A stretch of 41,056 nt of DNA from a virus. The DNA lies in IMG/VR virus record IMGVR_UViG_3300042887_002870, positions 1 through 41,056 of that record; one strand, 5' to 3'. A program made the position numbers and the translations under genes. How positions within the stretch are numbered: position 1 is the first letter of the stretch; every line of letters begins with the position of its first letter. Shown one piece after another: positions 5,633-18,735 of the stretch. The notes under the pieces are model-generated. The model did not search any database and had not been told where the DNA came from. It saw only the letters and a list, made by a program, of their open reading frames with translations.

Positions 5633-5752
5633 GTTTTACAATTGACAAATACTTAAGTGTTTAGTATATAAGGACTTATGTTAGATTGGCCGGGGGCGCG
5701 ATGCTGTAAGTCCTTACACTGTAAAGAGTTACGACATAACAAATGTAAGATA
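5633..5752. repeat. Four-box intergenic module, copy 1
   Basis: TAAGNNCTTA-type boxes occur in two pairs, 15 bp apart start to start, on either side of a GC-rich core (GGCCGGGGGCGCG). The outer ends are TTTTACAATTGACAA and an AAATGTAA run, themselves an inverted pair. Here boxes 2 and 3 are perfect and boxes 1 and 4 degenerate. Confidence 0.85.
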
Positions 5753-5793
5753 CTAATATATAAAAATATTTTTAAAATTTTTCAGAATTTATC

Positions 5794-5822
5794 TTGACTT
5801 TGATCGTGAAAAGTACGATAAT
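5794..5822 (+). promoter_or_regulatory. Promoter P5794
   Basis: TTGACT, 17-bp spacer, GATAAT, with an A/T tract upstream; it drives the genes at 5870, 6191 and 6488. Confidence 0.82.
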
Positions 5823-5869
5823 ATATATATAAGAGATAGGTGATAGCAATCAACGCAAAGGAAAGAACG

Positions 5870-6133
5870 ATGATCAACTCAAACAAATCACGCAAGGCTA
5901 ACAATGGTCGCAACGCTTTCGGTCGCAAGGTAGAATACATTCAGAATACTGAATTTGCTAAAATGTATCAGACTGTCACTGGTACATACAAGGTAACATA
6001 CAAGCAGTATTTCAATGATGATCGTCTAGGTATGGAATTTGACAATATCACAGACGCTTCGGAAATGTTCGATATGATTAACATGGCTGGTATCGAACGT
6101 GAAGAATTGGAAAATTTGGGCTTTGCACAATAA
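5870..6133 (+). CDS. Hypothetical cassette protein
   Basis: ATG 5870 is chosen over an in-frame ATG at 5840 because AAAGGA sits 7-8 bases ahead and 5840 lies within the leader, near the transcription start. The 87-residue product has a basic, Asn-rich start and a YKVTYKQYF / GMEFDNITDASEMFDMI body, which looks like a small alpha/beta domain. No family is recognised. It is first in a three-gene cassette. Confidence 0.75.
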   Translation: MINSNKSRKANNGRNAFGRKVEYIQNTEFAKMYQTVTGTYKVTYKQYFNDDRLGMEFDNITDASEMFDMINMAGIEREELENLGFAQ

Positions 6134-6190
6134 GCCCTATACGATATAATATAGCAAGATAAAAACTTCCCAAGTGAAAAGGATAGAAAA

Positions 6191-6472
6191 ATGAGTCAGA
6201 AAAATTTCGCAACGCTTATCATGCAAGATCGCCGTGACGGTCAGAAACAAGTCTTCTCAATTGCTGACGGTTCGGCTGAAAGCATCTGCGAAGAACTGGA
6301 AGCCTATGGGCTTGGTTCGGTTCAAGAGTGCATGAATCGTCTAATGAATGACGAATCAATTTTCTTTTCATCTTTCATCGTTTATCTATCGGAACAGCCG
6401 ATCTTTCAAGGCCCAAACTTGAACGAAGAACGATGGATTGAAATTTATGGCATGGAATGCGATATAGCATAA
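6191..6472 (+). CDS. Hypothetical acidic protein
   Basis: This 93-residue product is preceded by AAGGA. It begins with a beta-like ATLIMQDRRDGQKQVFSIADG run and continues with an acidic helical part. No family is recognised. It lies 57 bp after the previous gene and 15 bp before the next, in one transcript. Confidence 0.75.
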   Translation: MSQKNFATLIMQDRRDGQKQVFSIADGSAESICEELEAYGLGSVQECMNRLMNDESIFFSSFIVYLSEQPIFQGPNLNEERWIEIYGMECDIA

Positions 6473-6487
6473 TAGAAAGGATATACA

Positions 6488-6709
6488 ATGAAACGAGCTT
6501 GGAAAGAATTATCAGCCCCTGAAAAAAGACTGTATAGAGATACAGTTATCAGGAAGTATGATTTAGAAATATTGCTTTCTATTGACGAAGAAAGTATGAC
6601 GCAAGCCGAACATGATGAATTAAAAACTCATTTAGGTTGGCTTGATAAGTGGGATGAAACAAATGTCAGACCCACGCTAGATGAAATACTAGACGAAAAT
6701 GGCCTTTAA
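6488..6709 (+). CDS. Hypothetical charged helical protein
   Basis: This 73-residue product is preceded by AAAGGA and is rich in Glu, Lys and Trp, probably all helical. Its stop codon TAA lies inside the loop of the cassette terminator (ATGGCC tttaa GGCCAT), so the last codons are also part of the terminator stem. No family is recognised. Confidence 0.75.
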   Translation: MKRAWKELSAPEKRLYRDTVIRKYDLEILLSIDEESMTQAEHDELKTHLGWLDKWDETNVRPTLDEILDENGL

Positions 6710-6724
6710 GGCCATTTTCTTTTA
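6697..6724 (+). terminator. Terminator overlapping the 6488 gene stop
   Basis: The stem AATGGCC/GGCCATT is followed by TTCTTTT; the stop codon occupies the loop. Confidence 0.8.
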
Positions 6725-6731
6725 GCTATAA

Positions 6732-6848
6732 GTTTTACAATTGGCAAGTGTCTAAGTTCTTAATACGTAAGGACTTAGAGTAGGCCAGCCCCGGAGGATA
6801 TTCGTAAGTCCTTATATAGTAAGTAGTTATAGCATAACAAATGTAAAA
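6732..6848. repeat. Four-box intergenic module, copy 2
   Basis: Boxes are TAAGTTCTTA, TAAGGACTTA, TAAGTCCTTA and TAAGTAGTTA around a core with CAGCCCCGGAGG. The outer ends are TTTTACAATTGGCAA and ACAAATGTAAAA. Confidence 0.85.
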
Positions 6849-6882
6849 CCTAAAAATATTTCTAAAAATTCTTTTTTTTATG

Positions 6883-6911
6883 TTGACAGCTATATGAAAA
6901 GACGATATTAT
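6883..6911 (+). promoter_or_regulatory. Promoter P6883 for 6956 gene
   Basis: TTGACA, 17-bp spacer, TATTAT, with an upstream A/T tract. The region is nearly identical to that of copy A at 5297, so promoter and gene were duplicated together. Confidence 0.82.
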
Positions 6912-6955
6912 ATATATATAAGAGATAGGAAACAACGAACGAAGGAGAGATAGAG

Positions 6956-7180
6956 ATGAAGATGACAATCGCCAACAAAGTTGCTTTCAACAACCTGCCA
7001 TCAGCCGTTCAAAACGCTGTCAAAAATGCTACGGTTGATCAAGTCAAAAAAGGCAACATTCAGTCGGGTAGTTGGATGATCCAGTTCAAGTCAAAAAATG
7101 CTGGCCAATATACTGCTACAGCCTATCATAAAAATCACGGTACAACAAACAACATCGCTTTATATATCGGTGTTAAGTAA
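6956..7180 (+). CDS. Small conserved cassette protein, copy B
   Basis: This is a 74-residue paralogue of the 5371 product, about 75-80 percent identical by eye, with GAAGGAGAG upstream. Changes are mostly conservative, for example Ala/Val and Asn/Asp, as expected for two selected copies rather than a decaying duplicate. It is a single-gene cassette with its own promoter and terminator. Confidence 0.85.
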   Translation: MKMTIANKVAFNNLPSAVQNAVKNATVDQVKKGNIQSGSWMIQFKSKNAGQYTATAYHKNHGTTNNIALYIGVK

Positions 7181-7183
7181 TAA

Positions 7184-7211
7184 TAAGGCGGCTTAAGCCG
7201 CTTTTTTTTAT
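7184..7211 (+). terminator. Rho-independent terminator
   Basis: The stem GGCGGC TTAA GCCGC is followed by eight T. Confidence 0.85.
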
Positions 7212-7219
7212 GGTTATAG

Positions 7220-7340
7220 GTTTTACAGTTGACAAGAATCTAAGTACTTACCATGTAAGGAGTTACGATAAGTTGGTCCGGGGGCGCGGCCCTAAGCCCT
7301 TATGCCACAAGTACTTATAGTATAACAATTGTCAAATGTC
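7220..7340. repeat. Four-box intergenic module, copy 3
   Basis: Boxes are TAAGTACTTA, TAAGGAGTTA, TAAGCCCTTA and AAGTACTTA around GTCCGGGGGCGCGGCC. The outer ends are TTTTACAGTTGACAA and ACAATTGTCAAATGT. Confidence 0.85.
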
Positions 7341-7386
7341 CGATATTAGTGTACAAAAATATTTTTAAAAAATTTAGAAAATATTC

Positions 7387-7415
7387 TTGACTATGTAGAC
7401 AAAAAAGACGATAAT
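7387..7415 (+). promoter_or_regulatory. Promoter P7387
   Basis: TTGACT, 17-bp spacer, GATAAT, A/T tract upstream; it drives 7464 and 7679. Confidence 0.82.
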
Positions 7416-7463
7416 ATATATATAAGAGATCGGGAAACGGAAACAAGAGAAAAGAGAATAGCC

Positions 7464-7664
7464 ATGACAGTGAAAATCGAATTCGCCCCAGTTGCAACCG
7501 AAATCGTTCGTAAGGGTTGGAATTCCGAAACAACGGAATACACCTTTGCTAATGCTGACGATGCAAATCTTTTTTTCATCAATAAATGGGTCTGCGGCCC
7601 TATTGGTGAATGGAAGAAAATCAATGGCAACAAAGTCACCGTGTTCAATTGTTCAGCAGACTGA
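7464..7664 (+). CDS. Hypothetical small protein
   Basis: This 66-residue product has an AAGAG site upstream. It has a beta-like VKIEFAPVATEIVRKGW start and a Trp/Asn-rich end. The layout (short beta hairpin then DDANLFFINKW helix) resembles the 11369 product, which has DTENFLAWVNG in a similar place, so the two may be distant relatives. No family is recognised. Confidence 0.7.
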   Translation: MTVKIEFAPVATEIVRKGWNSETTEYTFANADDANLFFINKWVCGPIGEWKKINGNKVTVFNCSAD

Positions 7665-7678
7665 GAAAGAAAAGAACT

Positions 7679-7795
7679 ATGCTATATCGATACCTATGCC
7701 ATTTGTGCGACGAAATTTTCAGCTCTAATTTTACCATTAATCAGCTTCCTACAGTTGACGGAGAAATCGTCTGTCCCTGCTGTTCAGGAAAGTAA
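7679..7795 (+). CDS. 38-residue zinc-ribbon microprotein
   Basis: ATG 7679 lies 15 bp after the previous stop with AAGAAAAG upstream; a longer in-frame ATG at 7610 would sit inside the previous gene. CHLC near the start and CPCC at the end form a CxxC...CxxC zinc knuckle. Such mini zinc ribbons are common phage accessory products. Their targets are unknown. Confidence 0.65.
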   Translation: MLYRYLCHLCDEIFSSNFTINQLPTVDGEIVCPCCSGK

Positions 7796-7819
7796 GTGGC
7801 CATCTGGCCACTTTTTTTA
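7794..7819 (+). terminator. Rho-independent terminator
   Basis: The stem AAGTGGCC atct GGCCACTT runs into seven T; the 7679 stop codon overlaps its foot. Confidence 0.85.
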
Positions 7820-7828
7820 TAGCTATGG

Positions 7829-7951
7829 ATTTTACAATTGACAAGAGTCTAAGTTATTACTGCGTAAGGAGTTACGATAGGTCGCGCCGGGGGGCGCGCC
7901 CCTAAGTCCTTACTGCGTAAGCACTTAGAGAATAACAACTGTCAAATGTAA
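7829..7951. repeat. Four-box intergenic module, copy 4
   Basis: Boxes are TAAGTTATTA, TAAGGAGTTA, TAAGTCCTTA and TAAGCACTTA with CTGCG as spacer in both pairs. The core CGCGCCGGGGGGCGCGCC is nearly self-complementary. A further TTGACATTTGTCAA palindrome follows at about 7983. Confidence 0.88.
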
Positions 7952-8053
7952 CAGGTGATATATTAAGAGTGACGGCTTGGCTTTGACATTTGTCAACTGT
8001 AGCAGTGCTTAAAATAGCAATGTAAAAATTTATAAAAATTTTAGAAAATAGTG

Positions 8054-8082
8054 TTGACTTATCGGCGACTATAGACGATGAT
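8054..8082 (+). promoter_or_regulatory. Promoter P8054
   Basis: TTGACT, 17-bp spacer, GATGAT followed by the usual ATATATATAAG tract; it drives the 8122 gene. Confidence 0.75.
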
Positions 8083-8121
8083 ATATATATAAGTGATAGA
8101 GAAGTCCAAAGGGGAATGATC

Positions 8122-8289
8122 ATGAAAGTGTACGTGATATACGGTGGGCATATCGGGGAATGTTGGGTAGAATATGTATATGCTACATTTGAACTAGCCT
8201 ATGCCCATTTTGATAACTACTACGGAATGTCGCATAACCAAAAAATAGAAGCCATTCATGAATTTGAAGTTTTAACTTCTATCTCTTGA
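8122..8289 (+). CDS. Hypothetical 55-residue protein
   Basis: AAGGGGA lies ahead of ATG 8122; an in-frame ATG at 8116 is possible. The product starts MKVYVIYGGHIGECWVEYV, with a beta-strand and aromatic-rich pattern like the small phage proteins that begin VYVV. Its stop TGA forms the middle of the TTGACA box of the next promoter, a tight junction repeated many times in this genome. Confidence 0.7.
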   Translation: MKVYVIYGGHIGECWVEYVYATFELAYAHFDNYYGMSHNQKIEAIHEFEVLTSIS

Positions 8290-8314
8290 CAATTCCAATT
8301 CAGTATGGTAGAAT
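8286..8314 (+). promoter_or_regulatory. Promoter P8286, -35 overlaps stop codon
   Basis: TTGACA, 17-bp spacer, TAGAAT; the TGA of the 8122 gene is inside the -35. It drives the Gp88-like gene. Confidence 0.83.
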
Positions 8315-8348
8315 ATAGCAGGATAAGAAAAGTCTAAGGGGTTCAACT

Positions 8349-9083
8349 ATGTCAGTGAAATTCTCCGCTGCCAATACGAAAATCAAGAAACTTGCCAAGC
8401 TGCCCCAGTTTCAGCGTTGGCTCTCAAACAAACGTAAAATCTATTCTTTCGACTTGCTATCCGGTTTTTCATGCCCTGCTGCAAAGGATTGTCTATCACG
8501 TGCCATACAAACGTCCGAAGGTCGCCGTATTGAAGATGGCCCTGATACTGAATTCCGTTGTTTTTCCGCTTCTCAGGAAGTTGTATATACAAACGTATAT
8601 AACTTACGGAAGGGCAATTTTGACGCTCTCAGGGGTTGTACAACTGTAGAATCTATGGTCGATTTAATTCAATCGGCCTTTCCAAAAAATGCCGGAATTG
8701 TACGCATTCACGTTGCCGGGGATTTTTTCAACCGCTTGTATTTTCTGGCATGGTTGGAAATTGCCCGTAAAAATCCGAGCGTTCTTTTCTATGCCTATAC
8801 CAAACAATTGCCACTTGTAATAGAGAACGCCGATAAAATTCCAGATAATCTGGTATTAACGGCAAGCCGTGGCGGCAAGTATGATGAAATGATCGAGATT
8901 CACGATATGCGTTCGTCAACTGTAGTAGAGTCTGAAGATCACGCCACTGCTTTGGGGTTGCCAGTTGACAGTGATGATTCACACGCTGCCGACCCTGACA
9001 AACGTAGTGAGAGCTTCGCTCTTGTTATCCACGGCACGCAACCGAAGGGACGTAAAAAGTTGAGTTTGCCAGTCTTAGCATAA
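8349..9083 (+). CDS. Gp88-like protein, copy A
   Basis: This 244-residue protein matches the phage gene product 88 family first known from mycobacteriophages: SFDLLSGFSCPAAKDCLSRA, then DGPDTEFRCFSASQE, then IRIHVAGDFFN and LFYAYTKQLP. The function of the family is not known to me. Three Cys (42, 48, 71) are at the same positions in the second copy at 11951 and could bind a metal or Fe-S cluster (inference). It has its own promoter and AAGGGG site and is followed by a hydrophobic micropeptide gene, as is the second copy. Confidence 0.8.
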   Translation: MSVKFSAANTKIKKLAKLPQFQRWLSNKRKIYSFDLLSGFSCPAAKDCLSRAIQTSEGRRIEDGPDTEFRCFSASQEVVYTNVYNLRKGNFDALRGCTTVESMVDLIQSAFPKNAGIVRIHVAGDFFNRLYFLAWLEIARKNPSVLFYAYTKQLPLVIENADKIPDNLVLTASRGGKYDEMIEIHDMRSSTVVESEDHATALGLPVDSDDSHAADPDKRSESFALVIHGTQPKGRKKLSLPVLA

Positions 9084-9094
9084 GGGGCTGGCCT

Positions 9095-9163
9095 ATGATA
9101 ATTGTAATAGCCTTTCTGCTTGGGATGGCTGTTTCGCTAATGTCTAACAATAGTAAAATATAA
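9095..9163 (+). CDS. 22-residue membrane micropeptide, Gp88 partner A
   Basis: The reading frame starts 11 bp after the Gp88-like stop and encodes MIIVIAFLLGMAVSLM plus a short polar tail. The same kind of peptide (MIIVIAFILGMIVALL) follows the second Gp88 copy. Conservation of sequence and position across both copies is the argument for coding. It would be one membrane helix with a polar C-terminus. Confidence 0.72.
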   Translation: MIIVIAFLLGMAVSLMSNNSKI

Positions 9164-9187
9164 CCGGCGATAGCCGGTTATATTTTT
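9162..9187 (+). terminator. Rho-independent terminator
   Basis: The stem ACCGGC gata GCCGGT is followed by TATATTTTTT; it begins on the micropeptide stop codon. Confidence 0.8.
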
Positions 9188-9199
9188 TACCTGTAGCCC

Positions 9200-9320
9200 C
9201 TACATTTGACAGTTGTAAAACTCTAAGTGCTTACTGTGTAAGGACTTAGGATAGCCCCGGCCCTCCGGCGCAGTTGTAACTCCTTACGTAATAACGACTT
9301 ACAGCATAACATTTGTCAGA
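9200..9320. repeat. Four-box intergenic module, copy 5
   Basis: Boxes are TAAGTGCTTA, TAAGGACTTA, TAACTCCTTA and TAACGACTTA around CCCCGGCCCTCCGGCG. The outer ends are ACATTTGACAGTTGT and ACATTTGTCAGA. Confidence 0.85.
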
Positions 9321-9363
9321 GATTAGTGTACAAAAATATTTTTAGAATTTTCTTTTTTTGCTA

Positions 9364-9392
9364 TTGACTTATTAGGTGAAAAAGACGATAAT
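9364..9392 (+). promoter_or_regulatory. Promoter P9364
   Basis: TTGACT, 17-bp spacer, GATAAT, A/T tract upstream; it drives 9418, 9594 and 9860. Confidence 0.82.
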
Positions 9393-9417
9393 ATATATAT
9401 CAAGAAAGGGCATAGCG

Positions 9418-9597
9418 ATGATGATCTCAGAGAAAGTCAGAATCACGGTAGAGTTCAACGGTAAGAAATATCAGCAAATTACAAACGTAGTAAGCGATGG
9501 TGCTTATCATAACGTGTGTAATGAAATTAAGAAGATTATTGATTCGGCATGGATCAATAAGAAAATCACCTCATATTGTTGGAGCTATATATCATGA
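9418..9597 (+). CDS. Hypothetical 59-residue protein
   Basis: ATG 9418 follows AAGAAAGGG; an in-frame ATG at 9376 lies between the -35 and -10 boxes and cannot be used. The product is a small alpha/beta protein with VRITVEFNGKKYQQ near the start. Its stop overlaps the ATG of the next gene (ATGA), so the two are translationally coupled. Confidence 0.72.
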   Translation: MMISEKVRITVEFNGKKYQQITNVVSDGAYHNVCNEIKKIIDSAWINKKITSYCWSYIS

Positions 9598-9842
9598 CTG
9601 TCAGAGAATTAATCAATATTTTAAATTCAATTCCCGAAGATACTGAAGTCAGAATGATTGACACCCGTTCTCTCTGCGGAACTGAACATATACATTATAA
9701 TCTTGTAGAGGATGATTTAACATCATTATTCTACAAGGCTGAAGACAAGGTTTTACTATTGTCTGCACTTGAAAGAAAAGGAATTGTAGAGTGGGGCTGG
9801 GGCGACAATATAAAGTCATATACTGATGTAGAGATAAAATAA
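9594..9842 (+). CDS. VRELI-family small phage protein 1
   Basis: ATG 9594 overlaps the upstream TGA. This 82-residue product begins MTVRELINILNSIPEDTEVRMID. That start, a helix then a strand with 'leucine, proline, Asp/Glu, Val', is common in a widespread family of small phage proteins of unknown role. Relatives in this window are at 9860 and 16670. Confidence 0.78.
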   Translation: MTVRELINILNSIPEDTEVRMIDTRSLCGTEHIHYNLVEDDLTSLFYKAEDKVLLLSALERKGIVEWGWGDNIKSYTDVEIK

Positions 9843-9859
9843 CTATAGAGGGCATAATC

Positions 9860-10066: not shown

Positions 10067-10187
10067 CAACTGTCGAGACGTAAACCCTTACCCTATAAGG
10101 ACTTAGGGGGGGGGGCCGCCCCGGCGGCGCTGCCGTAAGTCCTTACTGCGTAAGTACTTACGATTCTACATTTGTCAACTGACAACT
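10062..10187. repeat. Four-box intergenic module, copy 6
   Basis: Boxes are TAAACCCTTA, TAAGGACTTA, TAAGTCCTTA and TAAGTACTTA; the core includes an 11-G run then CCGCCCCGGCGGCG. The left outer arm overlaps the stop codon of the 9860 gene. Confidence 0.85.
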
Positions 10188-10234
10188 ATAAAAGCACAGC
10201 TCAAAAATATTTTTAAAATTTTCCAGAATTTCTC

Positions 10235-10671: not shown

Positions 10672-10792
10672 TTTTACAAATGACAGTTGTCTAAGTTATT
10701 GTGGCGTAAGGACTTAGGATAGGCCCGTCCGGGCGGCGCTGCCGTAAGTCCTTACTACGTAAGCACTTACAGCTCTACAATTGTCAAGTGTA
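10672..10792. repeat. Four-box intergenic module, copy 7
   Basis: Boxes are TAAGTTATTG, TAAGGACTTA, TAAGTCCTTA and TAAGCACTTA around CCCGTCCGGGCGGCG. Next to it, at about 10817-10855, are further TTGTCAACTGTCAATTGT and ACAATTGTAA elements. No rightward gene follows; the next gene is on the minus strand. Confidence 0.85.
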
Positions 10793-10897: not shown

Positions 10898-11167
10898 TTA
10901 TAGGCTATTTGCAAATGCCCGAATTGAAACATTTTTTGGCTTGTGCCATTCATCCTCATACAATTGTTCGAAGGTATCATCTGAAATGTTAAACTCTGAA
11001 TTTTCAAATCTCCCCGGCATATCTGCGCCGAAATTATCCTCAATATAATCTCTCAATTCCTGAATTTTTTCTTCCCGTAATTCATTATAGCATTTTGAAC
11101 AATAGTTCAAGCCCTCAGAATCGACATGATTAACTTCAACCGAGCTATCGCAATATGCACAATTCAT
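10898..11167 (-). CDS. Zinc-ribbon acidic protein on the minus strand
   Basis: ATG 11167 is chosen because AGGA lies 8 bases ahead; ATG 11176 is too close to that site. The 89-residue product has CAYC and, about 20 residues later, CSKC, a zinc-ribbon pair, followed by an acidic helical tail (YEDEWHKP). It is the only leftward gene in this rightward region and has its own promoter and terminator. No family is recognised. Confidence 0.78.
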   Translation of the reverse strand: MNCAYCDSSVEVNHVDSEGLNYCSKCYNELREEKIQELRDYIEDNFGADMPGRFENSEFNISDDTFEQLYEDEWHKPKNVSIRAFANSL

Positions 11168-11223
11168 TAGAATCATCCTATCTAGTGTCTAGGTTAAGCG
11201 AACTGCTTTAACCTTATATATAT

Positions 11224-11296: not shown

Positions 11297-11325
11297 TTGA
11301 CTTTCAAGGCGGCATAGTCGATAAT
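11297..11325 (+). promoter_or_regulatory. Promoter P11297
   Basis: TTGACT, 17-bp spacer, GATAAT and ATATATATAAG; back to back with the leftward promoter at 11224. Confidence 0.83.
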
Positions 11326-11899: not shown

Positions 11900-11950
11900 A
11901 TAATCGTGGTCACAGTGGCCACGATTTTCCAGTCCAAAGGATATACGGCA

Positions 11951-12685
11951 ATGAATTTCAGCCCTGCGAATACCAAACTCAAAAAACTGTATAAGTCTGA
12001 AAATCCCGCTATTCAGGCTTATTTAAGCGGAAAGCGCAAAGTCTATTCGTTCGATCTGTTGAGTGGTCATTCCTGCCCATTCGCAGATAAGTGCCTCTCA
12101 AAAGCAGTCGAAACGCCAGAGGGCCGACGCATACAGGATGGCCCAAATACTGAATTTAGGTGCTTTTCCGCTTCGCAGGAAGTGGTTTACACCAATGTTT
12201 ACAATTCCCGTAAAGGGAATTTTGAAAATGTTCGCTTTTTAGAGCGTGATGAAATAGCGGCTATTATTCAGGATTCATTGCCAAAAAATGCCGGTATCAT
12301 TAGAATCCATGTGGCCGGTGATTTTTTCAATATCAAATATTTTCAGGCATGGCTTGATGTGGCCCGGAATAATACAAATGTACTATTCTATGCCTATACA
12401 AAAGCCCTTCCTTTCTGGATTAAATGTCAGGATGAAATTCCTACAAATGTAATCTTGACCGCCTCATATGGTGGCCGATGTGATAGCATGATCGCAGAGC
12501 ATAACCTGCGATATTCGCTGGTTGTCAATTGTCAGGGAGAAGCTGACGATTTTAGCTTGGAAGTCGATAACGATGATTCTCATGCCGCCGATCCTACAAA
12601 TGTAAACAAATCGTTTGCATTGATCATTCACGGCACGCAGCCGAAGAAAGCGAAAAAGAAAGCCCTTACAAATATGGGGGCATAA
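11951..12685 (+). CDS. Gp88-like protein, copy B
   Basis: ATG 11951 is chosen for AAAGGA upstream; a GTG at 11906 lies in the leader hairpin. The 244-residue product is a full-length paralogue of the 8349 product: SCPFADKCLS, RCFSASQEVVYTNVYN, IRIHVAGDFFN, LFYAYTKALP and a C-terminal FALIIHGTQPK. Cys42, Cys48 and Cys71 are at the same positions as in copy A. Its stop overlaps the start of the micropeptide gene (TAATG), so this copy is translationally coupled to its partner. Confidence 0.8.
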   Translation: MNFSPANTKLKKLYKSENPAIQAYLSGKRKVYSFDLLSGHSCPFADKCLSKAVETPEGRRIQDGPNTEFRCFSASQEVVYTNVYNSRKGNFENVRFLERDEIAAIIQDSLPKNAGIIRIHVAGDFFNIKYFQAWLDVARNNTNVLFYAYTKALPFWIKCQDEIPTNVILTASYGGRCDSMIAEHNLRYSLVVNCQGEADDFSLEVDNDDSHAADPTNVNKSFALIIHGTQPKKAKKKALTNMGA

Positions 12686-12781: not shown

Positions 12782-12905
12782 GTTTTACAATTGTTATGCT
12801 GTAAACCCTTATGGCGTAAGGACTTACGGCACGCCGTGCCGGGGGGCGCGCCCCTAAGTCCTTGCTACGCAAGCACTTATGGCAATCATACATTTGTCAA
12901 TTGTA
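12782..12905. repeat. Four-box intergenic module, copy 8
   Basis: Boxes are TAAACCCTTA, TAAGGACTTA, TAAGTCCTTG and AAGCACTTA. The core GCCGTGCCGGGGGGCGCGCC is very GC-rich. The right end is ACATTTGTCAATTGTAG. Confidence 0.85.
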
Positions 12906-13628: not shown

Positions 13629-13694
13629 TGATCATGTCGTCTAATGTAAGACTGGTAGCAATATCACAATGCGGGTTCGAATCCCGCCATGATC
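13629..13694 (+). tRNA. tRNA-like gene with shortened anticodon arm
   Basis: The acceptor GATCATG/CATGATC and the T-arm GCGGG TTCGAAT CCCGC are perfect and the D-arm is GTC...GAC. Only 18 bases separate D and T arms, where about 22 are normal. The best anticodon stem is four pairs (TGGT/ATCA) with a six-base loop and no T at position 33. It is either a decayed tRNA or a tRNA mimic; no anticodon can be assigned. Confidence 0.55.
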
Positions 13695-13751
13695 ATTCTG
13701 ACAACTGTGTCAGGTTCCTGTATCAATGTTCACTATTCAAGGTGAAACGCT

Positions 13752-14051
13752 ATGGCTTCCCGTATCCGTGATTCTCGCCGTCAAGTTCTTCGTACATCTA
13801 AAGATAACGCTTCCATTATGCGGGGGCGTTCTGAGGGGCTGATTATCGGAAACAAACTGATCATCGTACAAGAGTCGAAGGATGGCACTGTAAGCGAGTT
13901 CCGTTGCCATATGGCCGATTCGACATTTGTCGGGCTTGTTAAACAAATTCAGACAATGCTCAAAAATAAGAATAAAAAGTCCCGTAAACGCAGACTTAAC
14001 TTCCGTGAACGGGTTGAAAGTTATGGTTGGAAATTAAATATTCCGGCTTGA
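13752..14051 (+). CDS. Hypothetical basic protein
   Basis: AAGGTG precedes the ATG. This 99-residue product has Arg-rich ends (MASRIRDSRRQVLR and KNKKSRKRRLNFRERV) around a beta-like centre (GLIIGNKLIIVQES). Nucleic-acid binding is plausible. Its TGA overlaps the next TTGACT. Confidence 0.72.
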   Translation: MASRIRDSRRQVLRTSKDNASIMRGRSEGLIIGNKLIIVQESKDGTVSEFRCHMADSTFVGLVKQIQTMLKNKNKKSRKRRLNFRERVESYGWKLNIPA

Positions 14052-14076
14052 CTTTCTGAATAGACTAGAATATAAT
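14048..14076 (+). promoter_or_regulatory. Promoter P14048, -35 overlaps stop codon
   Basis: TTGACT, 17-bp spacer, TATAAT. A GGTATCAGAAATAGGTCTGATACC hairpin-like leader follows (14078-14101). Confidence 0.84.
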
Positions 14077-14118
14077 AGGGTATCAGAAATAGGTCTGATA
14101 CCTTTTGAGGATGATAGA

Positions 14119-14415
14119 ATGTATAACTCTGCTGAAATCGCCAAACTTGACAAACTCAATTTTCCTTTTGACTATGCCATTAAGGGCAAGTCTTACAAAA
14201 GTGGGAAGGAAATTTTAGAGCTTAGAGAAAAGTTCAAGGGAAGTAAAAAGGCTTTCCGAAGTAAAGTAGAAAAGGCTGACAGAATTGAATTCTACGCCTT
14301 ACAAGTATCAGAGGGTAAGCCGATTGAATTTCAGCCTGATGAAAGAAAATTAAATAATCGTATGGTTAATTTTTTAAATGGCTATTACAGGATAGCGGAA
14401 CAACTTGACAAATGA
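14119..14415 (+). CDS. Hypothetical lysine-rich protein
   Basis: GAGGAT precedes the ATG. The 98-residue product is Lys/Glu-rich and helical, starting MYNSAEIAKLDKLNFPFDYAI. No family is recognised. It is followed at once by a long perfect terminator. Confidence 0.73.
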   Translation: MYNSAEIAKLDKLNFPFDYAIKGKSYKSGKEILELREKFKGSKKAFRSKVEKADRIEFYALQVSEGKPIEFQPDERKLNNRMVNFLNGYYRIAEQLDK

Positions 14416-14416
14416 C

Positions 14417-14452
14417 AAAATAAAAGGCGGGCTTAGGCCCGCCTTTTATTTT
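14417..14452. terminator. Long perfect-stem terminator
   Basis: AAAATAAAAGGCGGGC and GCCCGCCTTTTATTTT form a 16-bp stem around TTAG; it can work in both directions. Confidence 0.9.
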
Positions 14453-14460
14453 GTCTTAAC

Positions 14461-14570
14461 CTTTTACAGTTGTTATGCTGTAAGTGCTTATGGTGTAAGG
14501 ACTTAGGACTAGCCCCGCCCGGAGGGGTGTCGTAAGTCCTTACTGCGTAAAGACTTACGTAAATGTTAAA
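14461..14570. repeat. Four-box intergenic module, copy 9
   Basis: Boxes are TAAGTGCTTA, TAAGGACTTA, TAAGTCCTTA and TAAAGACTTA with spacers TGGTG and CTGCG and core CCCCGCCCGGAGGGG. The right outer arm is short. Confidence 0.87.
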
Positions 14571-14590
14571 ATAGAACGATTAGTTAATTT

Positions 14591-14665
14591 GGGGGGATTA
14601 GAGGGATTAGGAGGGTTGGGGGATCTAGGAGGTTTGGGTAGCTTGGGCGGTATAGGGGGTTTTGG
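14591..14665 (+). repeat. G-rich tract, possible G-quadruplex array
   Basis: Over about 75 bases the plus strand carries at least seven runs of three to six G separated by short A/T-containing spacers (for example GGGGGGATTAGAGGG). It has no coding potential and lies directly before two TTAAGATTCG repeats, as at 22269. Confidence 0.7.
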
Positions 14666-14678
14666 CACACCTTATCTA

Positions 14679-14776
14679 TTAAGATTCGCGCCAACATAGC
14701 ACAGTCAGCTAACTTTAATAAGTGTAACAGTTTATGTATTAAGATTCGCCACACTAAGCTATAGTCAGCTAATTTT
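14679..14776 (+). repeat. TTAAGATTCG/AGTCAGCTAA repeat pair, locus 1
   Basis: Two units (14679-14716 and 14739-14776) each read TTAAGATTCG, 13-14 variable bases, AGTCAGCTAA, and then a T-run. GTAACAG-TTAT lies between units, as at locus 2 (22342). The unit ends about 30 bp before promoter P14807. Confidence 0.85.
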
Positions 14777-14806
14777 TAAAATATATATTTTTTTACCCTA
14801 ATCCTC

Positions 14807-14834
14807 TTGACTTATAATGTCGATAATGTATAAT
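14807..14834 (+). promoter_or_regulatory. Promoter P14807
   Basis: TTGACT, 16-bp spacer, TATAAT; it drives two co-translated membrane peptides. Confidence 0.8.
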
Positions 14835-14877
14835 AGTAATATAACAAGAGAGTCAAGTAGCAAGAAAGGAAAAGAGT

Positions 14878-14991
14878 ATGTCAGAAGTCGATATGGTATC
14901 TTTGGCTGTTCAGGTTTATTGCTCGTCTTTAGCTTTTAGTGTTGGGCTATTGACGGGTGATTTGATCAAAAAGATTTGGAGGGCAATCTAA
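14878..14991 (+). CDS. 37-residue membrane protein
   Basis: AAAGGAAAAG precedes the ATG. MSEVDMVSLA is followed by one hydrophobic stretch (CSSLAFSVGLLTG) and a basic end, IKKIWRAI, so a single N-out, C-in helix is likely. Its stop overlaps the start of the next gene (TAATG). Confidence 0.65.
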   Translation: MSEVDMVSLAVQVYCSSLAFSVGLLTGDLIKKIWRAI

Positions 14992-15080
14992 TGAAGAAGT
15001 TTATATTTCCTATTACATGGCTTATCATGTCTGTATTAGGAGGGATAATTGGCGTGTGGCTTTCTCGGAATGTGCTATAA
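14991..15080 (+). CDS. 29-residue membrane protein
   Basis: It begins on the stop codon of the previous gene. MKKFIFPITWLIMSVLGG is followed by IIGVWLSRNVL, a single membrane helix with a Lys-Lys start. The coupled pair of tiny membrane proteins resembles phage membrane-modifying or holin-type accessory pairs, but no family is recognised. Confidence 0.62.
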   Translation: MKKFIFPITWLIMSVLGGIIGVWLSRNVL

Positions 15081-15084
15081 AGAC

Positions 15085-15112
15085 TTGACAACCAACAATA
15101 TTCTGATAGAAT
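15085..15112 (+). promoter_or_regulatory. Promoter P15085
   Basis: TTGACA, 16-bp spacer, TAGAAT, four bases after the previous stop. Confidence 0.8.
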
Positions 15113-15131
15113 ATAACAAAGGAGAAGAATC

Positions 15132-15404
15132 GTGAACTACACAGAAAATGGTTATTACGAAGTTCGACTACGAAATCCTTATGAAATACCATATGTCCAT
15201 GTTGCATTTTTTAGGAACTACGATACTTGTATAGAGTACATATATAAACAGCCTAATCCCAAAAATTACGTTGTTCGTGAATGTAGTTCAGTCAAAATTT
15301 TTGACTCAGTGGAAGAATACGAACAGTTCAAGCTGAACGAAACAAGAGATAGACTTATGAAAAATTTAACGCCTATTGAAAAAAAAGCGTTGGGTTTGGC
15401 TTGA
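15132..15404 (+). CDS. Hypothetical protein with GTG start
   Basis: GTG 15132 follows AAAGGAGAAG by the right distance and no ATG fits. The 90-residue product is rich in Tyr and Asn at the start and charged and helical at the end. No family is recognised. Its TGA is inside the next TTGACA. Confidence 0.72.
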   Translation: MNYTENGYYEVRLRNPYEIPYVHVAFFRNYDTCIEYIYKQPNPKNYVVRECSSVKIFDSVEEYEQFKLNETRDRLMKNLTPIEKKALGLA

Positions 15405-15428
15405 CAAGGCAGATTGGTCTGGTATAAT
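15401..15428 (+). promoter_or_regulatory. Promoter P15401, -35 overlaps stop codon
   Basis: TTGACA, 16-bp spacer, TATAAT. Confidence 0.87.
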
Positions 15429-15473
15429 AGAGTAGTAAACAACAAGTGATCCCCCTTTCAGGAGATATGTCGG

Positions 15474-15698
15474 ATGAAAGAAGTCGCTCAAGCATGTATT
15501 GCAAAACTTTTTGAAGATTGTATTAAATTGCTAATAAATGGCCTTTTGGTCTATATTAGCTGGAATACAGTTATGACAAAATTCAATTGGCCAACATTAA
15601 CATATATCGAGTGTATGGCCCTTCTTGTATTAATCATTCAGATTTGCGACTATTTTTCTATCACTGTAAAAATTAAAGAAATGCCAGAAAAAACTTGA
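15474..15698 (+). CDS. Small membrane protein, two helices
   Basis: AGGAGA precedes the ATG by about 10 bases. The 74-residue product has hydrophobic runs at about 16-30 (LLINGLLVYISW) and 46-60 (ECMALLVLIIQI), with short charged ends. It could be a holin-like or superinfection protein, but nothing in the sequence decides this. Its TGA is inside the next TTGACA. Confidence 0.7.
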   Translation: MKEVAQACIAKLFEDCIKLLINGLLVYISWNTVMTKFNWPTLTYIECMALLVLIIQICDYFSITVKIKEMPEKT

Positions 15699-15722
15699 CA
15701 AGTTTAAAATCTGGTGTATAAT
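15695..15722 (+). promoter_or_regulatory. Promoter P15695 for tRNA cluster, -35 overlaps stop codon
   Basis: TTGACA, 16-bp spacer, TATAAT; it drives Tyr, Leu, Lys and Thr tRNAs. Confidence 0.87.
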
Positions 15723-15732
15723 TGAAGTACAA

Positions 15733-15812
15733 GCGTGTTGACCGAGTTGGATAACGGGCCTGACTGTAAATCAGGTGTCTCAGACTTAAGAGGTTCGAGT
15801 CCTACCTGATCA
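15733..15812 (+). tRNA. tRNA-Tyr(GTA) with non-pairing acceptor stem
   Basis: The anticodon arm CCTGA CTGTAAA TCAGG gives GTA, and a long variable arm (GTCT/AGAC) fits a class II Tyr tRNA. The D-arm CCG...CGG is present. But the T-stem pairs only partly (AGAGG/CCTAC) and the expected acceptor strands GCGTGTT and CTGATCA do not pair. It may be decayed, edited or trans-assembled; ends are approximate. Confidence 0.55.
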
Positions 15813-15869
15813 GCTCCGCCACCATGTGTGGTTGGAAATCGTGGGGACCATTAACGTGGCCCCTAGTAT

Positions 15870-15943
15870 GGTGACGTAGCCCAACGGCAGGAGGCAACAG
15901 TTTTAGGAACTGTACAGTGTAGGTTCGAATCCTATCGTCACTA
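15870..15943 (+). tRNA. tRNA-Leu(TAG)
   Basis: The acceptor GGTGACG/CGTCACT, anticodon arm ACAGT TTTAGGA ACTGT and T-arm GTAGG TTCGAAT CCTAT are intact. The variable region is only five bases, unlike the long arm usual for bacterial tRNA-Leu. The ~60 bases before it (15813-15869) hold hairpins but no gene. Confidence 0.8.
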
Positions 15944-15946
15944 CTT

Positions 15947-16018
15947 GGATCTATGGTGTAATTGGCAGCACCGCAGACTTTTAATCTGTTAGTCTGGGTT
16001 CGAGTCCCAGTAGATCCA
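15947..16018 (+). tRNA. tRNA-Lys(TTT)
   Basis: The acceptor GGATCTA/TAGATCC and anticodon loop CTTTTAA with stem GCAGA/TCTGT make a canonical cloverleaf. Confidence 0.93.
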
Positions 16019-16024
16019 TTAGAA

Positions 16025-16097
16025 GCTGGGATAGCACAATTGGCGGTGCTTCTGTTTTGTAAACAGAGGGTTGTGGGTTCGAATCCCACTCCTAGCT
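16025..16097 (+). tRNA. tRNA-Thr(TGT)
   Basis: The acceptor GCTGGGA/TCCTAGC, anticodon arm TCTGT TTTGTAA ACAGA and T-arm GTGGG TTCGAAT CCCAC are canonical. Confidence 0.93.
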
Positions 16098-16098
16098 C

Positions 16099-16126
16099 TT
16101 GACTTCTTCAAACCTTGTGGTATAAT
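16099..16126 (+). promoter_or_regulatory. Promoter P16099 giving a possibly leaderless mRNA
   Basis: TTGACT, 16-bp spacer, TATAAT. The ATG of the next gene begins seven bases after the -10, where transcription should start. Confidence 0.82.
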
Positions 16127-16132
16127 AAGAGT

Positions 16133-16291
16133 ATGAAACGAGAAATCAAATTCACAGTCCATACGGATATCCGAAAAGCTAAACGTAAGCATCGTGACCA
16201 CCAAAGCGGTGGCGGAGAACACGACTCTCGCCCTAAGCGAGAGCGAACTCGTGAACGTCAAGATAATTCATGGAAGTCCCTTGACAACTAA
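16133..16291 (+). CDS. 52-residue basic protein, possibly leaderless
   Basis: ATG 16133 follows the -10 TATAAT by six bases, so there is no room for a ribosome site. The product is MKREIKFTVH followed by a stretch very rich in Arg, Lys and His, a likely nucleic-acid binder. The coding end contains the next -35 (CTT GAC AAC TAA). No family is recognised. Confidence 0.62.
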   Translation: MKREIKFTVHTDIRKAKRKHRDHQSGGGEHDSRPKRERTRERQDNSWKSLDN

Positions 16292-16308
16292 AAAAAATAT
16301 GATAAAAT
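16281..16308 (+). promoter_or_regulatory. Promoter P16281 within the end of the upstream gene
   Basis: TTGACA, 16-bp spacer, TAAAAT; the -35 encodes the last residues of the 16133 product. Confidence 0.82.
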
Positions 16309-16381
16309 ATCATTGTGTCCAATATTCATGCAAGCGTTGAGGTATCTGCCATGTTGATGTCTATAATAAATGCGAGGATAT

Positions 16382-16459
16382 ATGGTGTTGTTTATTGTGT
16401 TTATTTGTGGTTGTATATTTGCAATTCATGAAGATAATATGGAGAAAAAAAGTGGGTAG
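16382..16459 (+). CDS. 25-residue membrane peptide
   Basis: GAGGAT lies just ahead of ATG 16382. MVLFIVFICGCIFAI is a membrane helix with an ICGC motif, followed by a polar tail. Its TAG stop overlaps the GTG start of the next gene by a few bases. Coding is inferred from ribosome site and coupling only. Confidence 0.5.
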   Translation: MVLFIVFICGCIFAIHEDNMEKKSG

Positions 16460-16673
16460 GTCATACAGAGACTCAAACAGTGACAAATATTCAGACAAGC
16501 AAGGTGAGAACCAAGACTTTAGACGAAAGGTTAAACAGCGTCTAAAATCTATTGACTTTGATGAGGAGGAACTTGAACTTCCAGAACAGGAACCTCATTT
16601 TCGTAAAGGCAAGGTTAAAGTAGAGAAGCGTGATAAGTGGAATCGTGGCCCTGACAAGAGGTTGTTATCATGA
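16452..16673 (+). CDS. Charged hypothetical protein with GTG start
   Basis: GTG 16452 is preceded by GGAG at eight bases; an upstream ATG at 16428 in the same frame is an alternative. The ~73-residue product is almost all charged residues with a central acidic patch (DEEELELPEQE). It ends ATGA-coupled to the next gene. No family is recognised. Confidence 0.62.
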   Translation: MGRSYRDSNSDKYSDKQGENQDFRRKVKQRLKSIDFDEEELELPEQEPHFRKGKVKVEKRDKWNRGPDKRLLS

Positions 16674-16876
16674 CTTGGCGAGAATTAGGCGAAGCGATTG
16701 AAAATATGGAACCTCGTTTCCTAGATACAGAAATTCAATTGTACGATGCTACGGAGGGCATTACATATCATGATAATGTAGAGCTAATGGAAGATGAAAC
16801 ACATGATGACTATACCATTGACTTGAATCAACCACAAATTTGGTTCAACATGGATGAGACAACAGAGGAGCTGTAA
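16670..16876 (+). CDS. VRELI-family small phage protein 3
   Basis: ATG 16670 overlaps the upstream TGA. MTWRELGEAIENMEPRFLDTEIQLYD matches the start of the 9594 and 9860 products. The rest is acidic. The stop codon is in the loop of a GAGGAGC/GCTCCTC hairpin. Confidence 0.75.
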   Translation: MTWRELGEAIENMEPRFLDTEIQLYDATEGITYHDNVELMEDETHDDYTIDLNQPQIWFNMDETTEEL

Positions 16877-16889
16877 GCTCCTCTGTTAT
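16862..16889 (+). terminator. Hairpin at 16670 gene stop
   Basis: The stem ACAGAGGAGC/GCTCCTCTGT surrounds the stop codon; the T-run after it is weak, so it may only attenuate. Confidence 0.6.
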
Positions 16890-16953
16890 AAGGAGTTAGG
16901 TTTATCCCGCCGAGGGAAAGTTCGTAAATGCTTACTAATTAATAACTTAGATT
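16888..16953. repeat. Intergenic box module, copy 10 (degenerate)
   Basis: TAAGGAGTTA, a short GC core (CCCGCCGAGGG), TAAATGCTTA and TAATAACTTA remain; box 1 and the outer arms are missing. Confidence 0.65.
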
Positions 16954-17016
16954 ATGGAGGTTAGCAAGTGGAAGAAGATGTACTAGACTTTTCTGCTGAT
17001 TTTTGGGAAAAAAGAC

Positions 17017-17045
17017 TGGACACCGAGCCTGATTCTGCCGATAAT
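17017..17045 (+). promoter_or_regulatory. Promoter P17017
   Basis: TGGACA, 17-bp spacer, GATAAT followed by ATATATAG; it drives the lipoprotein gene. Confidence 0.75.
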
Positions 17046-17076
17046 ATATATAGTCAAGAACAGAAAGGACTGTCTT

Positions 17077-17259
17077 ATGCGTCAGATGATTTTCGGGGTT
17101 TTGATCCTGTCTCTGTGTGGATGCAAACACCTTCAGACGAAACAGGAGAAGTCAGTCATTCTTCAGCCCCCAACCGCCGAGCTAAAGGAAGAGCCAAAGC
17201 AAAAAATTGTAAACATCACTCTGCTGCGAGTTGAGAATTTTACAATAAAAGCCTTTTGA
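17077..17259 (+). CDS. Small lipoprotein, Rz1-like outer-membrane spanin candidate
   Basis: GAAAGGA precedes ATG 17077. The 60-residue product starts MRQMIFGVLILSLCGCKH: Arg, hydrophobic core, then an LCGC lipobox with Cys16 as the lipidated residue. A Gln/Pro-rich mature part (LQPPTAELKEEPKQ) follows. Small proline-rich lipoproteins of this kind are typical o-spanins in phage lysis, but no i-spanin overlaps it, so a host-surface role is also possible. Confidence 0.7.
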   Translation: MRQMIFGVLILSLCGCKHLQTKQEKSVILQPPTAELKEEPKQKIVNITLLRVENFTIKAF

Positions 17260-17263
17260 GGAC

Positions 17264-17291
17264 TTGACAACCGGCAGCTCTATGGTATAAT
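17264..17291 (+). promoter_or_regulatory. Promoter P17264
   Basis: TTGACA, 16-bp spacer, TATAAT. Confidence 0.88.
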
Positions 17292-17311
17292 AGTAGTGTA
17301 GGGAGGAAACG

Positions 17312-17482
17312 ATGGAAGAAAACTGCAAGATCTACATCAGCAAGACTCGGATGCTTGTTGATGCCTATGTGAACGATGAGGGCGATGTATTCTACAAAGC
17401 TCCGTGTCATGGTGGATATTACTTCTATCCTATGACAAAAGTATTTATGGACAAGTTCGGTGTAACAATCTATCCGGGGTGA
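17312..17482 (+). CDS. Hypothetical 56-residue protein
   Basis: GGGAGG precedes the ATG. The product has KIYISKTRMLVDAYVNDEGDVFYKAPCHGGYYFYP, a compact beta-like pattern. It ends three bases before the next gene. No family is recognised. Confidence 0.72.
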   Translation: MEENCKIYISKTRMLVDAYVNDEGDVFYKAPCHGGYYFYPMTKVFMDKFGVTIYPG

Positions 17483-17485
17483 CAT

Positions 17486-17689
17486 ATGATTTTCTTCTAC
17501 AAAGTGACGGATTTGAAAAATGGTAAAACATACTCTCAGCGTACTCATATTGATGAGTTTAGCTCCTATCGGGATTTTATTGGCTATCTGGAAGGCCAGA
17601 ACCAATTTTGGGTTGGCCAGTTGCGATTCGAAGAAGATCGAAAAAAAATCGCAGAAGACAGCTTGACAAGAGAACTTTTAGTGGTATAA
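17486..17689 (+). CDS. Hypothetical protein whose 3' end is a promoter
   Basis: This 67-residue product has a FYKVTDLKNGKTYSQ beta start and a charged helix end. No clear ribosome site is free of the upstream gene, so re-initiation is likely. The last codons, from Leu-Thr to the stop, encode TTGACA and TATAAT of the next promoter; the stop TAA is inside the -10. Confidence 0.7.
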   Translation: MIFFYKVTDLKNGKTYSQRTHIDEFSSYRDFIGYLEGQNQFWVGQLRFEEDRKKIAEDSLTRELLVV

Positions 17690-17690
17690 T
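17663..17690 (+). promoter_or_regulatory. Promoter P17663 embedded in CDS
   Basis: TTGACA, 16-bp spacer, TATAAT, fully inside the 17486 coding end; stop codon TAA lies in the -10. Confidence 0.87.
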
Positions 17691-17737
17691 AGAGTAGTGA
17701 AGTGAAGAAGAGTTCAGACAACAAAGAGAGGATTGAG

Positions 17738-18061
17738 ATGATCGCTAATTTGACCGCTGGTAACAAAGTCAAGTTCCAGTATATTGACCGTGTTCGTGAC
17801 TATTCAGTTTTTCCAACTGCTACTTCTTATGACATCGACACTTACGAAGGTACTGTTGTTGATGTACGAGATATTAGCATTGATAAGTTGTCACGAGAAA
17901 CTGTTGCTCGTCATCCAGAAGTTGAGCGGTCACGATACTTGGTGACTATACAGTTGTCAGACAACAAGATCAAGTCATTCTATGACGGTCGAGTTGTCAA
18001 CATCAAGAAAATTAACAAGAATTTTATCTCACGACTAGTTGACAAGTTGACTGGTAAGTGA
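17738..18061 (+). CDS. Hypothetical 107-residue protein
   Basis: GAGGATTGAG precedes ATG 17738. The first half looks like an SH3-like or small beta-barrel (NLTAGNKVKFQYIDRVRDY, then YEGTVVDVRDI), the rest is charged. No family is recognised. Its end carries the -35 and spacer of the tRNA promoter. Confidence 0.75.
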   Translation: MIANLTAGNKVKFQYIDRVRDYSVFPTATSYDIDTYEGTVVDVRDISIDKLSRETVARHPEVERSRYLVTIQLSDNKIKSFYDGRVVNIKKINKNFISRLVDKLTGK

Positions 18062-18067
18062 TATAAT
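18039..18067 (+). promoter_or_regulatory. Promoter P18039 for tRNA cluster, embedded in CDS
   Basis: TTGACA, 17-bp spacer, TATAAT; the stop of the 17738 gene is in the spacer. Confidence 0.87.
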
Positions 18068-18098
18068 AAGAGTGTGGTTAAAGGCCACACTCATCTAT

Positions 18099-18172
18099 GG
18101 TGCTGTAGCCTAAGTGGCAAAGGCATTCGGTTGTCAACCGAAAGATAGCGGGTTCAAATCCCGTCAGCACCG
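18099..18172 (+). tRNA. tRNA-Asp(GTC)
   Basis: The acceptor GGTGCTG/CAGCACC and anticodon arm TTCGG TTGTCAA CCGAA are canonical. A GTGTGG...CCACAC leader hairpin precedes it. Confidence 0.94.
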
Positions 18173-18177
18173 CTTAT

Positions 18178-18250
18178 GCCCCCATCGTCTAGTGGCCTAG
18201 GACGCAAGGTTTTCAACCTTGAGACCGGAGTTCAATTCTCCGTGGGGGTA
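18178..18250 (+). tRNA. tRNA-Glu(TTC)
   Basis: The acceptor GCCCCCA/TGGGGGT, D-arm GTCTAGTGGCCTAGGAC and anticodon arm CAAGG TTTTCAA CCTTG are canonical for Glu. Confidence 0.93.
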
Positions 18251-18252
18251 CT

Positions 18253-18376
18253 GACCATATGCCAGAGTGATAATGGACTTGTTATGCAAAATGGCCGATC
18301 AGTTTTTTACATCACTTGCGAATGATATAGACGAACAAGCAAGCAAGTATCTCAGGTTTGATTCCTGATATGGTCT
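18253..18376 (+). tRNA. Interrupted tRNA (possibly Cys) with ~55-nt insert
   Basis: The acceptor GACCATA/TATGGTC and T-arm TCAGG TTTGATT CCTGA are perfect and the D-arm is CCA...TGG. The length is 124 nt. The strands ACTTG and CAAGT, which would form the anticodon stem, are 62 nt apart. Removing about 18284-18338 would leave loop TT-GCA-AG, i.e. Cys, an isotype otherwise missing here. The repeated CAAGCAAG makes the boundary uncertain. Confidence 0.6.
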
Positions 18377-18379
18377 TAT

Positions 18380-18468
18380 GCGAGTGTGGCGAAATTGGCG
18401 AAACGCCTCGGACTTAAAATCCGAGACCCAAGCGGTAAACATTGTGGGTTCGAGTCCCACCACTCGTA
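18380..18468 (+). tRNA. tRNA-Leu(TAA)
   Basis: The acceptor GCGAGTG/CACTCGT, anticodon arm TCGGA CTTAAAA TCCGA and a long variable arm are canonical for class II Leu. Confidence 0.93.
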
Positions 18469-18505
18469 CTCCAGACCCTACGCAAGTCTGGAATCATTCT
18501 TGTTG

Positions 18506-18543
18506 AGGCCGCCTTGTTCTCGTTGAATGAGGCGGCTCCTTTT
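18506..18543 (+). terminator. Hairpin between tRNA-Leu and tRNA-Arg
   Basis: GAGGCCGCCT and AGGCGGCTCC pair around a 15-base loop and run into TTTT; it could be a terminator or a processing hairpin. Confidence 0.5.
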
Positions 18544-18545
18544 AT

Positions 18546-18618
18546 GCAGTCGTAGCCTAGTGGATGAGGCATCAGATTTCTACTCTGTTTTACGAGGGTT
18601 CGAATCCTTCCGACTGTA
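18546..18618 (+). tRNA. tRNA-Arg(TCT)
   Basis: The acceptor GCAGTCG/CGACTGT and anticodon loop TTTCTAC give TCT; the T-arm is GAGGG TTCGAAT CCTTC. Confidence 0.9.
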
Positions 18619-18624
18619 CTTTAT

Positions 18625-18655
18625 AAAGCCACTGCGAAAGCGGTGGCTTTTTTCG
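18625..18655 (+). terminator. Rho-independent terminator after tRNA cluster
   Basis: The stem AAGCCACTGC/GCGGTGGCTT around GAAA is followed by TTTTTT. Confidence 0.88.
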
Positions 18656-18664
18656 TATCTACTT

Positions 18665-18735
18665 TCCACACAAGGATTTACGTTACGCCCCCTAGGGGAG
18701 CCACCTAAGTCCTTGCTTCGCAAGTACTTACATCA
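18665..18735. repeat. Intergenic box module, copy 11 (shortened)
   Basis: Boxes 2-4 remain (AAGGATTTA, TAAGTCCTTG, AAGTACTTA) around CGCCCCCTAGGGGAG; box 1 and the outer arms are lost. Confidence 0.72.

Follow-up and report, generated by a model that had tools for sequence, protein, structure and literature searches.

Integron attC sites and REPINs are four-box or doublet inverted repeats that lie between cassettes or genes. T4-type phages reportedly carry promoter-early stem-loops (PeSLs), conserved stem-loops that Arbiol and colleagues are said to have described in 2010 at early promoters and cassette boundaries. Here, an array of repeated modules was analyzed in a 41,056-nucleotide stretch of viral DNA (IMG/VR virus record IMGVR_UViG_3300042887_002870, positions 1 to 41,056), referred to below as the window. 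The module is probably a compound operator on double-stranded DNA that sets the activity of an early transcription unit.

Two described phage systems come close to such an operator. For the cluster A mycobacteriophages, such as L5 and Bxb1, two reports describe about 20 to 30 dispersed stoperators or operators per genome, served by one phage DNA-binding protein. The stoperators are single asymmetric 13-bp sites that are bound by a monomer, lie mostly off promoters, and are oriented with transcription, and their consensus varies among related phages, with heteroimmunity (PMC9283540, PMC6550527). For phi29, p4 is described as a DNA-bending phage regulator that turns early promoters off. Its sites form two regions of two inverted repeats each near the early promoters, at a single regulatory locus where they overlap the -35 element, with the consensus CTTTTT-15 bp-AAAATG (PMC3100819).

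An earlier note on the window had listed eleven modules. When a four-box scan with a spacing of 15, 35 to 40, and 15 was applied, exactly 11 modules were recovered, each where the note had placed it, and shuffled sequence gave none. The box sequence TAAGNNCTTA occurred 21 times against 1.25 expected (maximum of 4 among 100 shuffles), and all 21 copies were inside modules, with none elsewhere in the window; the motif is thus confined to the modules rather than common along the DNA. The eleven modules are confirmed as real and far beyond chance. All are on the plus strand. Modules 1 to 9, placed by the scan and by alignment, span 5654 to 5731 (pair centers at 5666 and 5719), 6753 to 6829, 7241 to 7317, 7850 to 7927, 9224 to 9301, 10081 to 10160, 10692 to 10769, 12802 to 12879, and 14481 to 14557. 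Modules 10 (16874 to 16949) and 11 (18656 to 18730), placed by the scan, had the lowest scores of the eleven, in agreement with their earlier description as decaying copies.

The anatomy differed in part from what had been proposed. Boxes of one type were expected throughout, which holds exactly for 21 of the 44, while the remaining boxes carry one to three mismatches. In an alignment of many contigs, the unit, read outward, is approximately YAAGGACTTACGNC, and paired units face one another over 5 bp. Each module therefore consists of two palindromes of about 37 bp (box 1 with box 2 and box 3 with box 4) flanking a G/C-rich dyad core, and two palindromic pairs are a better description than four equal boxes. 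The outer inverted arms, TTTTACAATTGACA and TGTCAAATGTAA, are clear in some copies (the left arm at 5634, 6733, 7221, 7830, and 10672) and altered or swapped in others.

The modules are conserved in related phages. Two pattern scans of a viral collection returned 22 and 14 stretches, some by chance; a search with the helix-turn-helix (HTH) family found at least 571 relatives, of which 80 were kept; and further searches found 336 and 177, of which 80 each were kept (the three lists may overlap). Several of the stretches from the pattern scans share a gene order of a sigma70-region-2-like gene, the gene of an HTH protein (PHROG D5-like in relatives), a GDP-mannose dehydratase gene, and then terminase and head genes. 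The HTH gene, at 3033 to 3824 on the minus strand of the window, served as the syntenic anchor. In the first set, 75 modules were located upstream of it (247 kb) and none downstream (631 kb), and a module was present in 23 of the 35 loci that extend over 2.2 kb upstream. In a further set, 192 pairs were on one side of the anchor gene and none on the other. Eight of 12 whole records matched the pair pattern, with up to 21 modules per record, and where matches were abundant they clustered in one region, for example at 21.5 to 42.8 kb of an 88-kb record. For a hold-out, 159 new loci were collected and 5 near-duplicates were removed. The resulting 154 loci had 636 pairs upstream of the HTH gene (842 kb), 1 downstream (1,461 kb), and 0 in shuffles; of the 80 loci that extend 5 kb or more upstream, 54 had a doublet. 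Since the score matrix was built from related phages, the hold-out tests generality within the lineage. In this large lineage of uncultured phages, the modules thus form an array within a single early region. The HTH protein and the array DNA had no match in an annotated phage collection, in which the terminase matched 43 records, each at less than 60% identity, and the Ro-like protein matched 12, with a best full-length identity of 36%. A search of bacterial and archaeal genomes with the exact box 2-box 3 pattern gave two single matches, in Tissierellia (L037) and Paenibacillus (L038).

Spacing within the module is precise. The pair centers are 52 to 53 bp apart, which, at about 10.5 bp per turn of the DNA helix, corresponds to about five helical turns. 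Among pair distances below 120 bp in 17 loci, 132 of 144 were 52 or 53 bp, and 138 kb of shuffled sequence contained no pair; in the held-out loci, 252 of 262 short distances were exactly 53 bp. A contig usually keeps a single spacing: this was the case for 21 of the 24 contigs that had three or more doublets (the mixed ones being the window, L054, and L072) and in 38 of 39 such held-out contigs. Among 179 oriented distinct modules, the core is a dyad in both spacing classes; it resembles GGCCGGCC in the 118 modules of the 53-bp class and GGCnGCC in the 54 modules of the 52-bp class. The middle 8 bp were 94% G/C in held-out modules, amid A/T-rich surroundings.

The position of the modules relative to candidate promoters was also consistent. 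Around 176 modules, promoters pointing away showed a peak of the -35 element at 60 to 120 bp from the module center, whereas those pointing toward the module remained at the background level. A candidate promoter lay within 40 to 160 bp of 63 of 82 modules in seven record sets, compared with 19 to 31% of random positions. In the held-out loci, 132 of 194 modules had such a promoter on the array side and 2 of 194 had one on the opposite side, compared with 43 of 194 random positions. In the seven record sets, 36 of 196 strong promoters had a module upstream, and the A/T fraction upstream of promoters was 0.69 with a module versus 0.64 without (P = 0.002), a difference that was clearer in the window. 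There, consensus matches follow the modules directly at 5794 (to 5828, plus strand; TTGACT...GATAAT, A/T-rich, module 1), with others of the same class at 6883, 7387, 9364, 12945, and 18770, the last belonging to module 11; two more, near 8056 and 10234, were seen by reading. At module 7, a minus-strand open reading frame (ORF; 10898 to 11176) separates the module from the next A/T-rich promoter at 11297, and at module 9 a G-rich repetitive stretch with repeats (14584 to 14780) displaces the promoter to 14807. Module 10 has no convincing promoter. The earlier note had described an A/T-rich promoter after most copies and a terminator before them. By eye, a terminator-like hairpin precedes 9 of the 11 window copies, the exceptions being those at 10081 and 16874. 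A strict search found a terminator within 160 bp upstream of 17 of 168 modules, against 1 in shuffles, and within 160 bp downstream of none; at that strictness, terminators are not general.

This placement between terminator and promoter would also suit an insulator or boundary, with or without a protein, that separates strongly transcribed neighboring units, for example by blocking transcription, by forming a barrier to supercoiling, or by halting the spread of an A/T-binding silencer. The very G/C-rich center amid A/T-rich DNA fits such a role, as does the module count, which follows cassette starts rather than promoters. However, spacing precise to 1 bp and palindromic half-sites exceed what a passive boundary needs, and we consider an insulator rather unlikely.

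The earlier note had compared the modules with the promoter-early stem-loops of T4-like phages, and a stem-loop in RNA or single-stranded DNA would account for their position between cassettes and for their folding, which was more stable than that of shuffled sequence (-28.7 versus -19.7 kcal/mol). The complementarity of the arms did not bear this out. Arm partners within a module were compared with those of other modules of the same contig in 151 modules from 26 contigs; the central base of odd-length cores was excluded, and the test covered 52- and 53-bp doublets (7 of the 179 oriented modules are off this spacing) in contigs with at least three modules. In all five comparisons, partners within a module were less complementary than in the same-contig shuffles (z = -2.0, -3.8, -4.5, -2.8, and -4.2), a deficit to which under-assembly of perfect palindromes could contribute. 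Chimeric halves folded more stably than real modules (-31.5 versus -28.7 kcal/mol). Both results speak for binding of a protein to double-stranded DNA rather than for a conserved stem-loop. In addition, the module is upstream of the promoter and downstream of any strict terminator found, so that little transcription across it is expected. A stem-loop is therefore very unlikely.

A role in recombination or replication had also been suggested. Cassette content does vary between close relatives, and some junctions are at module edges, -38 to -50 bp from module centers (L009/G006 and L016 with L001/L018); the four-box layout, moreover, resembles attC. A phage recombinase, or plain homology, could thus shuffle cassettes at the modules as in integrons or homologous exchange. 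Nevertheless, homology between close relatives ended within 70 bp of a module in 18 of 160 cases (11 contig pairs), against 9.7% at random, and the crossover point is not fixed. Without enrichment of breakpoints, a recombination role is unsupported, and we regard it as quite unlikely; no evidence of a replication role emerged.

The site itself varies among relatives. The inner boxes are altered in L040 and L043, a TAAG pair and core are joined with a TGTACA-type palindrome in L052/L053, and the G/C core lies within G/C-rich palindrome-like stretches in L112 and L055. In six related loci, two of which (L211 and L213) look like the same DNA by site count and position, the place of the modules is taken by a different sequence, the perfect or near-perfect palindrome CTGCCAAAATGGCAG (CTGCC type). 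In these loci, 30 of 46 short distances were 29 bp, a promoter was within 160 bp for 19 of 23 distinct 29-bp doublets, and the cores ranged from strongly G/C-rich to mixed. Typing of 234 loci gave 89 TAAG, 27 single-pair, 6 CTGCC, 22 with none, and 90 too short. Retention of the design while the site sequence changes suggests different trans-acting proteins. It is conceivable, although we hold this tentatively, that the lineage has an exchangeable control system, with a compound-operator array, one operator per early cassette, one lineage-specific regulator, and site types (the TAAG doublet at 52/53 bp, the CTGCC doublet at 29 bp, and mixed or single forms) that are replaced as sets to give heteroimmunity-like groups. 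A further AGCAAATATCATGCCAAA-like repeat follows many CTGCC doublets in the upstream regions of L175, L206, and L213. In L034, positions 4303 to 4871 hold eight near-perfect 25-bp palindromes, TAAGTCCTTGCTACATAAGGACTTA, of the same unit as the module pairs but without the doublet spacing.

For the compound operator, we propose that a protein complex, presumably phage encoded, would assemble on the module about 60 to 120 bp (center to -35) upstream of an early promoter, which tends to follow A/T-rich DNA, and would set the activity of the downstream transcription unit. Binding of the boxes by a phage protein, as already supposed in the earlier note, is favored by the fixed geometry, helical phasing, promoter position, and lack of hairpin co-evolution. 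The most likely action is early shut-off or repression, with activation and insulation as alternatives. Because the site is found on many early-region cassettes, a single regulator can act on them jointly, and a whole site type can be exchanged between relatives. Several observations weigh against this reading. All promoters considered here are matches to a sigma70-like consensus only, and 160 of the 196 strong promoters in the seven record sets have no module. The spacing in the window itself is mixed (50 to 55 bp), the single-pair variants L064 and L066 show that two pairs are not always required, and a doublet is absent from 26 of the 80 held-out loci that extend 5 kb or more upstream, of which only 6 are explained as CTGCC type. 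Neither nearby HTH protein follows the site type, and a gene-presence comparison of 54 loci over about 10 kb yielded no credible reader, the best match looking like a spurious ORF.

Two candidate readers of the boxes were considered, and both are unlikely. The N-terminal HTH of the D5-like protein is nearly the same in L040, with its altered inner boxes, and in L042, with normal ones, and is similar also in loci without TAAG doublets. Its predicted fold is an HTH with long helices; Foldseek gave nothing below an E value of 0.001 and weak matches to HK97 small terminase (E of about 1), and it may be a packaging protein, possibly a small terminase. The second candidate, encoded at the array edge (4503 to 4760 in L119), is a small protein that combines an HTH with an AT-hook-like KPRGRP tail and is widespread in one clade. 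It was present in 33 of 65 TAAG, 1 of 13 single-pair, 13 of 50 short, 17 of 20 siteless, and 6 of 6 CTGCC loci, and its presence does not track site type. Pfam and PHROG scans of conserved proteins returned endonucleases, a phosphoribosyltransferase-like protein, rIIA, ThyX, UvdE, terminase, and portal, and no obvious regulator.

Other features of the window are as follows. At the array edge, a sigma70 region-2-like protein is encoded at 3817 to 4350 on the minus strand, at the same place in most relatives compared; it has region 2 only, resembling T4 gp55-type late sigma factors, and lies beside the HTH protein. Two very similar 74-amino-acid ORFs in neighboring cassettes (5371 to 5595 and 6956 to 7180) probably reflect a cassette duplication. 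The array contains two GP88 (PF17338) paralogues, at 8349 to 9083 and 11906 to 12685, and the family was matched in 8 of 10 relative records. A Ro60-like RNA-binding protein at 28843 to 30348 has 36% identity to a Myxococcus phage Mx1 protein. ARAGORN detected 19 tRNA genes and Rfam 20, in a few clusters (13630 to 20118, 30492 to 31106, and 37290 to 38775). Two window ORFs have PEP-CTERM-like ends. Together with a DUF1559 protein of G001 that bears an N-methylation motif, this may point to planctomycete hosts.

The module is a precise cis-element by which the early region of this abundant lineage can be recognized, and it offers a handle for finding the regulator. At the sensitivity used, the annotated phage collection holds no close relative of the lineage. 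Should the site types be specificity groups, it would become predictable which phages are able to share or interfere in one cell, a question that can rarely be approached for uncultured phages. Among the matches listed, literature searches on the module motif returned only unrelated work, and those on phage repeat or promoter elements and planctomycete phages returned nothing on the module.

Compared with T4 PeSLs, the modules are likewise repeated and located at promoter-like sequences and variable early-cassette boundaries, but their stem complementarity is below random and they are paired palindromes upstream of the promoter. They share the four-box or doublet inverted-repeat layout of attC sites and REPINs; however, their sequences differ, dyad complementarity is avoided, and breakpoints are not enriched. 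A regulatory complex of the phi29 p4 type acts on early promoters through a DNA hairpin that the protein induces. As with the p4 sites, two regions with inverted repeats are near early promoters, whereas the modules form an array of similar copies with an unrelated consensus. With the cluster A stoperators, they share many dispersed copies, an orientation that follows transcription, and a common consensus that varies among related phages. Unlike those sites, the modules precede promoters and are paired palindromes around a G/C core, at a fixed spacing of 52/53 bp. Thus, the modules resemble dispersed operators but, having a different site anatomy, are not counted as a member of the stoperator system.

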